Below are positions 30,808-47,328 of a DNA stretch of 64,000 bases, piece by piece (position 1 is the stretch's first letter; each line of letters opens with the position of its first letter). This DNA is from a bacterium (GTDB lineage: Bacteria > Myxococcota_A > UBA9160 > SZUA-336). The notes under the pieces are model-generated. The model saw nothing but the letters and a program-made list of their open reading frames with translations, made no database searches and was not told where the DNA came from. The stretch lies in NCBI GenBank assembly GCA_024226335.1, contig JAAELY010000333.1, positions 1-64,000 on the forward strand. The letters run 5' to 3'. Position numbers and translations under genes: made by a program.

Positions 30808-32241
30808 ATGGGATTCTCGGAGTATGGTCAGTACGACGGTCTGGGCCTCGCGGAACTCGTGCGAAACTCCGAAGTTTCGCCCGCGGAACTGGTCGAGGAG
30901 GCGATCGCCCGGATCGAGCGCCACAACCCGATGCTGAATGCGATCGTGCACAAAGCCTATGACGACGCACGTCAGAGTGCAGCATCCGAGTTGCCGGACG
31001 GACCCTTCCGAGGTGTGCCGTTTCTGATCAAAGATCTCGGGTGTGCGGTAGCGGGCATGCCCAGAACCAGTGGCAGCCGTTTTCTGCAACACGAATTCGA
31101 CACGGAAGACAGCGAACTCACGCGTCGCTATCGCAAGGCCGGAGTGGTGATCCTCGGCAAGACCAATACACCCGAGTTGGGTATTACCGGAACCACCGAG
31201 TCGGCGCTGCTCGGGGCCTGTCGCAATCCTTGGAATCCCGAGCACATCTCGGGCGGTTCATCGGGAGGGGCCGCTTCGGCGACGGCCGCGGGTATGGTTC
31301 CGCTCGCCCATGCTAGTGACGGCCTGGGTTCGATCCGCATCCCCGCGGCGTGTTGCGGGCTGTTTGGGTTGAAGACGACACGCGACCGCAATCCAAATGG
31401 TCAGCGTGACGGTGCTCGCGCGCTCGGGTTCTCGGTGGATCACGTCGTCTCGCGTAGCGTGCGCGATAGCGCGGCAATGCTCGACGCGACTGGCTATCCC
31501 GAAGCGTCATCACCCTACGCACCACCGCCCAAGGAGCGGCCCTATCTGGACGAAGTCAGTACCGCACCGGGAAGGTTGCGGATTGCATATTCCAGCGAGA
31601 CGCCGCGAGGTGTGGCCATTCACGAGGAGAACCAGAGAGCCTTCGAGATGACGGTGAGTCTGCTCGAAGAACTGGGGCACGAGGTCATCGAGCGAGGTCT
31701 GGGTGTGGACTATCGGGAACTCTACCGCGCGCAGTCCGCCGTAGCGGCGGCCAATGCGGCAGCGAATCTCAAGGAGATGAGTGAGCGGGTCGGCCGCGAG
31801 CCCGAACCCGACGAACTCGAACCGCTTACTTGGGCGGGAATTCGTGCGGGACAGAAGCTATCGGGCGAAGTCGTCATGGCCGGTTGGCGCAAGTTACGCG
31901 AATTGAATCGCGAGGTCCTGTCGCTATTCGAGGATGTCGATGTATTTCTCAGTCCGGTCATGGGAACACCGCCACCGCAGATCGGGCATATCGATCCAGT
32001 GAACTTGAAACCGCGCGAGGTGAGTCGCAGACAGGCTACGGTCTTCCCGTTTACTCCGCCCTTCAATTTCACCGGCCAACCCGCGATGTCGGTACCACTA
32101 TTCGAAAGCAGTGATGGTCTTCCACTCGGAATGCAGTTCGCAAGTCGCTATGCGGACGAAGCAACCCTGTTTCGATTGGCTGCACAGCTCGAACAGGCTC
32201 AGCCCTGGATCGGGCGCAAACCGCAGGTGTCGGACCTCTAG
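30808..32241 (+). CDS. Amidase-signature hydrolase
   Basis: This 477-residue enzyme has the Ser-cisSer-Lys triad: Lys75 in FLIKDLG, Ser151 in GGSSGG and Ser175 in DGLGSIRIPA (the family usually has DGGGSIR). It hydrolyses amides in the cytoplasm; the substrate is open. The ATG at 30808 follows GGAGGA. The TAG stop (32239-32241) lies inside CTAG, the target site of a 161-bp MITE-like element inserted directly behind the gene. The C-terminus still matches the normal family end (PLGMQFASRYADEATLFRLA), so the coding region was not truncated. Confidence 0.88.
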   Translation: MGFSEYGQYDGLGLAELVRNSEVSPAELVEEAIARIERHNPMLNAIVHKAYDDARQSAASELPDGPFRGVPFLIKDLGCAVAGMPRTSGSRFLQHEFDTEDSELTRRYRKAGVVILGKTNTPELGITGTTESALLGACRNPWNPEHISGGSSGGAASATAAGMVPLAHASDGLGSIRIPAACCGLFGLKTTRDRNPNGQRDGARALGFSVDHVVSRSVRDSAAMLDATGYPEASSPYAPPPKERPYLDEVSTAPGRLRIAYSSETPRGVAIHEENQRAFEMTVSLLEELGHEVIERGLGVDYRELYRAQSAVAAANAAANLKEMSERVGREPEPDELEPLTWAGIRAGQKLSGEVVMAGWRKLRELNREVLSLFEDVDVFLSPVMGTPPPQIGHIDPVNLKPREVSRRQATVFPFTPPFNFTGQPAMSVPLFESSDGLPLGMQFASRYADEATLFRLAAQLEQAQPWIGRKPQVSDL

Positions 32242-32402
32242 GGAACCTCTGCACAGGGAGGCTGCGGCTGCGAAGCGCGATGCATCCGCCTGCGCTGCGT
32301 CGCGCGACCCTCTGCAGATCTACGGATCTGCGATCGGATCACGCTTCTTGCTCAGGCGGCGACTTCCGCTTCTCGCTCGAATCCTCCCTGTGCAGAGATT
32401 CC
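32242..32402. mobile_element. MITE-like element, copy 1 (161 bp)
   Basis: The element starts GGAACCTCTGCACAGGGAGG and ends with the inverted complement of GGAATCTCTGCACAGGGAGG, giving 20-bp terminal inverted repeats with one mismatch. It is flanked by CTAG on the left and CTGG on the right, an imperfect 4-bp target duplication. It is identical to copy 2 (45572-45732) at 157 of 161 positions and has no transposase. The TIR start and YTAR target resemble IS5-family elements. Confidence 0.75.
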
Positions 32403-32413
32403 CTGGCAGACGA

Positions 32414-45547: not shown

Positions 45548-45571
45548 TGGCGCGCTTCTGAGGCCGGCTAG

Positions 45572-45732
45572 GGAACCTCTGCACAGGGAGGCTGCGGCTG
45601 CGAAGCGCGATGCATCCGCCTGCGCTGCGTGGCGCGACCCCTTGCAGATCTACGGATCTGCGATCGGATCACGCTTCTTGCTCAGGCGGCGACTCCCGCT
45701 TCTCGCTCGAATCCTCCCTGTGCAGAGATTCC
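45572..45732. mobile_element. MITE-like element, copy 2 (161 bp)
   Basis: Same 20-bp terminal inverted repeats and length as copy 1, differing at four positions (157/161). Flanked by a perfect CTAG duplication (45568-45571 and 45733-45736). The right-hand CTAG contains the TAG stop codon of the minus-strand oxidoreductase. No coding capacity, so it depends on a transposase elsewhere. Confidence 0.78.
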
Positions 45733-47328
45733 CTAGCGCTTCAGTCCCAGTTCGTGCGCAATTTCGAGCGCTGCGTTTCGTCCGGGTGCGCCCATGACTC
45801 CACCACCCGGATGCGTTCCGGAGCCGCATAGGAAAAGCCCGGGGAGCGGAGTGCGATAGCGTGACCAGTCGGGAACTGGCCTCATGAACAGCAGGCGATC
45901 CATGCTCATGGCCCCGTGGAAGATATTTCCGCCGGTCAAGCCGAACTCGCGCTCCAGGTCCGGGGCTACCAGAGTTTCGGCGTGTTCGATGCTGTTCTGG
46001 AATCCCGGTGCGACTCTCTCTATCGCCGCGAACACTCGGTCTCGCATCTCGTCGCGCAAACTCGGCCAGCGCGGATCGTCGTTTGCCAGAGCGGGAGCGT
46101 ATTGGCAGAAGATGGAGGCCACATAACGTCCTTCGGGGGCAAGGGTCGGGTCCAGCGTCGACGGAATTGTGAGTTCCACGACAGGCAGTTCAGAAACGCG
46201 ACCCGCGTGGGCGTCATCATAGGCTCGCTCGATCCCGTCGAGGTCCGTAGGCCCGATGTGGATGGTACCCGTGAGCGGTTGTGTTTCGCGGTCCGCAATC
46301 GCGAAGTTCGGCAGTTCGTTTAGGGCCAGGTTGATTTTCACGACCGGGCTGCGGTAGTCGATGCCCGCGATCGCGCGGGTGAATTCTTCGGGCAAAACGG
46401 CCTTGTCGTCCAGGCTCGCAAACGTGCGCGCCGGATCTGCACTCGACACAACGGCATCGCATCTGATTTCCTCACCGTTCGCCAATGCCACGCCTACGCT
46501 TCGACCACTGCGGGTTACGATCTGCTCGACTTCTGCGTTGGTGCGCAGCTCCGCTCCGTGACGACGTGCCGCATCTGCAAGTGCTTCCGTGAGTGCTCCC
46601 ATGCCGCCCTGGACGTACGACCACACGCCGCGATGTCCGCCTAGTGAACCCATCACGTGATGGAACAGCACGTAGCCGGTTCCGGGTTGGCTCGGTGCTG
46701 CGAACGCACCGATCACGGCGTCCGTCGCCAGTGTGGCTCGCAGCGGTTCCGCATCGAAGTACTCTTCGAGCAATGACCGCGCAGGGCCGAGTAGAAGCCG
46801 AGCGGCCTTGGGCAGATCGCGACCCAGCTTCAAACCCGCACGGGCGCCCAGCCAGAGTGGCTTCAAATCGGCAGGTCGACGGACGCGTACGTCCGGAGCG
46901 GGCGCATCCAGAGTTGGCTCGATGGCTGCTGCGATGCGCTCGAGGAGAGCCTCGTAGCGGGGATAGATCTCCGCGTCGTGAGCCGAGAACTTGCGGATGT
47001 CCGCCACGTTCTCACTCATCGAAGGTCCCAGCACCAGCGATCGGCCGTCGAGCAGCGGAGTAAAAGAGGACGGTGAGCGCGGTAGAAGACGCAGGCCGGA
47101 GCTTTCGAGCTGCAGGTCGCGCACGATCTGCGGGCGCAGAAGGGAGACGACGTAGGATGCGCGGGAGACCTTGTACCCGGGCCAGCATTCCTCGGTCACA
47201 CACGCCCCGCCCAGGATCTCGCGACGCTCCAGTACCGTGACCCGGGCGCCCGCTCTCGCCAGATAGGCGGCGCAGATCAGCCCGTTATGTCCTCCGCCCA
47301 GGATCGCGACGTGAGGTGCATCCGTCAC
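45733..47328 (-). CDS. Phytoene-desaturase-like FAD-dependent amine/carotenoid oxidoreductase
   Basis: This 531-residue NAD(P)/FAD-dependent oxidoreductase has the dinucleotide motif AILGGGHNGLICAAYLARAGA (core GGGHNG, about residues 9-14), a second substrate/FAD region and a C-terminal GLFLCGSGTHPGGGVMGAPGRNA motif, as in PYROXD2/CrtI-like proteins. GTG 47328 is chosen as start, 4 bp after the PBP1A stop. The TAG stop forms part of the CTAG target of MITE copy 2. No carotenoid genes are nearby, so a role in carotenoid synthesis is unlikely; the substrate is unknown. Confidence 0.86.
   Translation of the reverse strand: MTDAPHVAILGGGHNGLICAAYLARAGARVTVLERREILGGACVTEECWPGYKVSRASYVVSLLRPQIVRDLQLESSGLRLLPRSPSSFTPLLDGRSLVLGPSMSENVADIRKFSAHDAEIYPRYEALLERIAAAIEPTLDAPAPDVRVRRPADLKPLWLGARAGLKLGRDLPKAARLLLGPARSLLEEYFDAEPLRATLATDAVIGAFAAPSQPGTGYVLFHHVMGSLGGHRGVWSYVQGGMGALTEALADAARRHGAELRTNAEVEQIVTRSGRSVGVALANGEEIRCDAVVSSADPARTFASLDDKAVLPEEFTRAIAGIDYRSPVVKINLALNELPNFAIADRETQPLTGTIHIGPTDLDGIERAYDDAHAGRVSELPVVELTIPSTLDPTLAPEGRYVASIFCQYAPALANDDPRWPSLRDEMRDRVFAAIERVAPGFQNSIEHAETLVAPDLEREFGLTGGNIFHGAMSMDRLLFMRPVPDWSRYRTPLPGLFLCGSGTHPGGGVMGAPGRNAALEIAHELGLKR

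Follow-up and report, generated by a model that had tools for sequence, protein, structure and literature searches.

Escherichia coli IS5 has short inverted ends that start with GGAA, and Tn7-like elements target 3' ends, where their insertion is tolerated. In E. coli the insertion of IS5 duplicates the tetranucleotide YTAR, most commonly as CTAG (15 of 24 listed sites), and is reported to be biased toward DNA that is intergenic, AT-rich, duplex-destabilised or bound by H-NS (PMC5493358). CTAG itself is under-represented in bacteria (PMC5493358; PMC11677980). MITEPsy1 of Pseudomonas syringae, which is related to ISPsy2, is a 100-bp element that duplicates CTAG or YTAA (PMC3189936), and REP-targeting IS elements insert in extragenic sites that tolerate them (PMC1525189). 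The targeting of CTAG by IS5 elements and MITEs is thus already known; a bias of either toward stop codons was not found in the searchable literature, outside which most subscription journals lie. IS1301, looked up in the same literature, yielded nothing on its target sites. The element described here represents an IS5-group MITE family that is new, the novelty lying in its stop-codon niche.

Two MITE copies and their family

The window, a stretch of 64,000 nucleotides, lies on contig 333 of a draft assembly (5.75 Mb, 556 contigs) in which many contigs are broken at the element. The original prediction placed in it two 161-bp elements with 20-bp inverted ends at CTAG sites, each CTAG containing a TAG stop codon, and this was borne out by the following features, in which the partner IS is an IS5-family insertion sequence of the same genome.

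30808-32241, plus strand: amidase gene, its TAG stop being part of the CTAG that borders copy 1 on the left
32238-32241: left CTAG target duplication of copy 1, the amidase TAG stop within it (32239-32241)
32242-32402, plus strand: MITE copy 1, 161 bp, among the 36 full-length copies compared
32242-32261, plus strand: C-end terminal inverted repeat of copy 1, GGAACCTCTGCACAGGGAGG, its first 14 bp identical to the right end of the partner IS
32383-32402, minus strand: T-end terminal inverted repeat of copy 1, GGAATCTCTGCACAGGGAGG, its first 12 bp identical to the left end of the partner IS
32403-32406: right target duplication of copy 1, reading CTGG (mutated)
45568-45571: left CTAG target duplication of copy 2
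45572-45732, plus strand: MITE copy 2, 161 bp
45572-45591, plus strand: C-end terminal inverted repeat of copy 2
45713-45732, minus strand: T-end terminal inverted repeat of copy 2
45733-45736: right CTAG target duplication of copy 2, holding the TAG stop of the minus-strand oxidoreductase
45733-47328, minus strand: FAD-dependent oxidoreductase (CrtO/phytoene desaturase-like), terminating in the CTAG to the right of copy 2

The inverted ends of both elements match at 19 of 20 positions, where 100 shuffles gave an expectation of 0 end matches, and the elements, at 161 bp and with terminal inverted repeats, have no room for a transposase gene, as is usual for a MITE. Copy 2 has CTAG at both edges, and in copy 1, which has CTAG at its left edge and CTGG at its right, one arm of the duplication is mutated. 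The window contains 26 CTAGs where 84 are expected, a depletion of about threefold.

Copies elsewhere in the genome, whose collection the original prediction had proposed, were gathered by an end-pattern search, and ~575 kb of surrounding sequence was then taken. The search returned 62 exact ends of the C type and 78 of the T type, and the sequence around them holds 115 element loci. Of these, 42 have both ends; the other 73 are cut, in most cases at the end of a contig, as the repeat interrupts the assembly. Between element and host, 144 distinct junctions were counted, each with at least 300 bp of flank, so that the copy number is at least about 72 to 75 and the pattern common to the two copies in the window is not a coincidence. 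The 36 full-length copies lie only 1-4 bases each from the consensus, with a mean divergence of 1.3%, which indicates a young family, and a search for the MITE sequence in 59 related genomes gave nothing except one short match.

The family also includes short copies of 54-147 bp, which have internal deletions and retain both ends. Those on contigs C54, C138, C169, C170 and C398 have kept CTAG (ATAG in one), and some are still at gene stops. At two loci (C405:11734-11739, locus L131, and L238:34-69) two elements stand back to back with one CTAG in common, as if one copy had inserted in the target duplication of another. The outer flank of three further copies (C34:15407, C356:11235 and C492:13351) is unusual and the same in all three, TTCGGCYGGGCCTCTAG, which suggests that a repeated host sequence was targeted more than once.

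Target duplication and the ends of host genes

The tetranucleotide at the 144 junctions is CTAG in 132, TTAG in 5, CCAG in 3 and CGAG, CAAG, ATAG or CTAA in 1 each, and most copies have CTAG at both edges. The YTAR preference of the IS5 type, assumed in the original prediction, is seen in most of the family, and copies at non-CTAG sites, which would have told against it, are rare and mostly at single-base variants of CTAG. A weaker preference extends outward, to position -7, where C is found in 56% (vs 35%), and to position -5, where G is found in 49% (vs 37%), which is consistent with a palindromic target CNG-CTAG-CNG.

CTAG is so nearly universal at both ends that it alone cannot tell a duplication from sequence borne by the element. 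Were CTAG part of the element's own ends, insertion could occur anywhere, and the stop codon created by the element would truncate the gene into which it fell. The copy at C523 argues against this reading, as it is flanked on both sides by CTAA, in the form of a direct and not an inverted repeat, which identifies the 4 bp as a true target duplication and not as a palindrome carried by the element. The flank on the far side of the elements, moreover, is seldom coding.

The host genes point the same way. When 11 proteins that end at elements were compared with Pfam and NCBIfam profiles, nearly all matches extended into the last few positions of the profile; the proteins include DapB (last position matched, 270 of 270), glucose-6-phosphate isomerase, fumarase, an alcohol dehydrogenase (370 of 370) and an SDR, and further an amidase, an AMP-binding protein (AMP-binding_C, 76 of 76), a histidine kinase, an AraC protein and an amidohydrolase. 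The amidase of the window is full length, matching PF01425 over 1-444 of 445 positions and NF009119 to position 462 of 462. The match of the CrtO-like oxidoreductase stops 31 positions short of the profile end, and its orthologues stop at about the same place: in related genomes most of them terminate, without an element, no more than a few residues away from it. In one genome of the same family (G005) a single contig carries both genes, arranged as in the window, the amidase ending in ...GGCTAG with no element, that is, in an empty CTAG stop, and the oxidoreductase ending in TGA within a few residues of its counterpart in the window, again with no element. The orthologues used for this comparison of ends came from other genera of the family.

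Since the genes that stop at elements have their full length, and orthologues without an element end at the same place, some of these also in CTAG, it is most improbable that the elements create the stops, and the stops at elements appear from these alignments to be natural gene ends. The original prediction had called such insertions nearly harmless, the stop being kept by the duplication; the checked host genes are indeed intact, and harmlessness would follow from their intactness. For annotation, genes that end at such elements should not count as truncated. An oxidoreductase orthologue from another family of the class (L296) ends in CTAG, and the GGAACCATCCGCAGG that follows resembles a degenerate end of the element.

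An IS5-family partner

A search for an IS with the same ends, also suggested in the original prediction, found an IS5-family IS both in the same genome and in others; the absence of any related transposase, which had been named as a contrary outcome, was thus not what we saw. In the same genome the IS5-family transposase is assembled only as collapsed contig ends and relics. The ends of the partner IS read GGAATCTCTGCA on the left and GGAACCTCTGCACA on the right, the left end being found as CTAG followed by GGAATCTCTGCAGAAC at three sites and the right end as CTAG followed by GGAACCTCTGCACATG at one, and all four are flanked by CTAG. The left and right pieces, which no contig spans together, probably belong to one IS. 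Two of the three left-end insertions are at gene stops.

The T-end of the MITE is identical to the left end of this IS over 12 bp and the C-end to its right end over 14 bp, and the MITE and the IS have in common an asymmetric T/C difference at base 5. These end matches, including the difference at base 5, are the best evidence that the MITE is moved by the partner IS. Compared with intact ISs in other genomes, the MITE ends are identical over 14-16 bp. The match is limited to the terminal 12-16 bp, so that the MITE is not just the partner IS with its interior deleted.

Contigs of public genomes were scanned with a pattern of CTAG plus the end, which, since it contained CTAG, gives no evidence on the choice of target. 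The scan returned 57 stretches from about 25 MAGs labelled as Proteobacteria, Deltaproteobacteria/Myxococcales, Binatus-type and Acidobacteriaceae. Six of the 57 hold complete elements of 1.07-1.18 kb with CTAG on either side, and five of these encode an unbroken transposase frame of ~320 aa, the frame of the sixth being interrupted by unread bases. The transposase of one intact relative matches NF033581 (transpos_IS5_4) at 6e-98, together with Pfam DDE_Tnp_1 and DUF772.

Two other transposase loci were seen in the source genome. On C289 (L062/L248, about 1475-1964 in L248) an internally deleted relic of an IS5-type transposase has its left end at the stop of a hybrid histidine kinase and its right part joined to a MITE, which is itself on the stop of another gene. 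A second, different IS5-like transposase with an open frame of 316 aa (PF01609) lies at C542:1734-2270 (L061).

Placement on stop codons and its explanation

Genes were called with a simple frame-specific Markov model trained on the fetched sequence (coding fraction about 0.9), and one and the same classification was applied to element junctions and to CTAG sites without an element. In the comparison with random CTAG sites that had been put forward as a check, in-frame C-TAG gene stops were found at 25 of the 30 copies with two flanks and at 52 of 266 unoccupied CTAGs (p = 4e-12). Insertion within genes at the expected rate, which would have spoken against the prediction, did not occur, as 2 of the 30 copies are intragenic vs 119 of the 266 unoccupied sites. 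With genic sites left out, the ratio of stop to non-stop sites is 25:3 for the copies and 52:95 for the unoccupied CTAGs (p = 1e-7). An earlier, simpler gene caller gave stops at 25 of 30 copies vs 63 of 287 CTAGs, and the enrichment was robust to gene-score cut-offs of 5-20 and to a model-free test based on open frames of 100-250 codons. Junctions known from a single contig end are at stops in 24 of 84 cases vs 56 of 532 (p = 3e-5). If each copy has at most one stop side, the share of copies at stops is about 57% for those at contig ends and 83% for interior ones, or about 68% pooled. For comparison, sequence free of elements has 418 called stops, of which 72 are C-TAG, and about one CTAG in five is a gene stop. 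Where related ends occur in other genomes, stops were found at 17 of 74 junctions vs 17 of 210 control CTAGs (p = 0.0015), as called with a gene model trained on a different genome.

A property of the element's RNA might instead hold it at gene ends. Copy 2 folds into a single long hairpin of -94 to -106 kcal/mol, the hairpin is near-perfect on both strands (z = -7.9 and -10.2), and the element stands directly 3' of stops, often between convergent genes (15 of the 25 stop-site copies), as would suit a 161-nt hairpin retained as a terminator or as a stabiliser of mRNA 3' ends. Long inverted repeats are, however, expected of any MITE. The compensatory pairing changes that would mark a REP/BIME or a structured 3' RNA number 0 among the 36 copies, against 35 broken pairs, in a comparison whose power is limited by the low divergence. 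An Rfam search of the window gave no match. Neither end of the element faces the gene preferentially (28 C-end vs 21 T-end, p = 0.39), as expected with a palindromic target, and the partner IS is placed likewise on stops. Retention for the sake of the hairpin is on these grounds improbable.

The placement is probably explained by a non-autonomous MITE, an IS5-group transposase acting in trans, duplication of CTAG and loss of insertions from genes. An IS5-family (IS5 group) transposase would move the MITE in trans, recognising the ~12-14 bp at the tips of the element and cutting the palindrome CTAG, seldom another YTAR, with duplication of the 4 bp. CTAG is scarce inside genes and common as a gene end (C-TAG). 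Because CTAG is both palindromic and duplicated, the TAG stop would be rebuilt for either orientation of the element and on either gene strand, so that an insertion at a stop would leave the protein unchanged and survive, while intragenic and many upstream insertions would be purged. CTAG targeting and purifying selection, which we take as the main filter, would together account for most of the placement.

They leave an excess to be explained. Random insertion at CTAG followed by loss from genes predicts that about 35% of survivors are on stops (52 of 147 non-genic sites); the share observed is 89% among interior copies outside genes and about 68% when all copies are counted. Stop CTAGs are therefore over-occupied relative to other non-genic CTAGs, and random insertion with purging from genes is not the whole account. 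For the same reason the rarity of CTAG outside stops, which in the original prediction lets a YTAR preference steer elements to gene ends, contributes to the placement but is only part of its explanation. Selection against insertions upstream of genes covers some of the excess, and an extended target a little of it.

It is also possible, though on balance unlikely, that stops are chosen at insertion and not merely spared by selection, because the transposase prefers a longer palindrome (about CNG-CTAG-CNG) or responds to some property of gene 3' ends, for instance their DNA structure or the termination of transcription or translation. The outer flank preference at -7 and -5 agrees with this, as does the finding that stop CTAGs are favoured over non-stop CTAGs within convergent and tandem neighbourhoods (CMH p = 0.002) and after adjustment for flanking motif and GC (odds ratio about 12, logistic p = 5e-6). 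E. coli IS5 is known to need structural features beyond the tetranucleotide (PMC5493358). The motif alone, however, accounts for only part of the effect (LRT p = 0.03 with stop in the model), and selection against upstream insertions would look much alike among copies of which none is seen as a fresh insertion. Active targeting and finer selection both fit the excess in these data, which cannot separate them. The wider proposal that an IS5-type transposase actively favours stop CTAGs, making the stop codon a recurrent landing pad across several bacterial phyla, is in our view doubtful.

CTAG targeting combined with purifying selection offers a simple, sequence-level answer to how a DDE transposon that has no dedicated targeting protein can multiply where genes are densely packed. 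Its target is a palindromic tetranucleotide, scarce in coding sequence, with which many genes end, and the duplication made on insertion repairs the stop. If this is general for CTAG-targeting IS5 elements, the use of TAG stops and the avoidance of CTAG would set the number of safe sites, a prediction that is testable across public genomes.

The system resembles E. coli IS5, with short inverted ends starting with GGAA, a DDE transposase of the same family (NF033581, in the partner's close relative) and a 4-bp YTAR duplication that is mainly CTAG; it differs in the stop-codon bias seen here, none being described in the IS5 literature. MITEPsy1 is likewise a MITE, with short inverted ends that start with GGAAGG and with CTAG or YTAA duplicated; its sequence and its host are different, and the accessible part of the MITEPsy1 report gives no location at stop codons (PMC3189936). 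With REP-targeting IS elements and Tn7-like elements the MITE described here has in common that it occupies 3' or extragenic positions that tolerate insertion. Their targets are REP sequences or a single defined attachment site, whereas this MITE uses many different genes, by way of the stop codon's own four letters.
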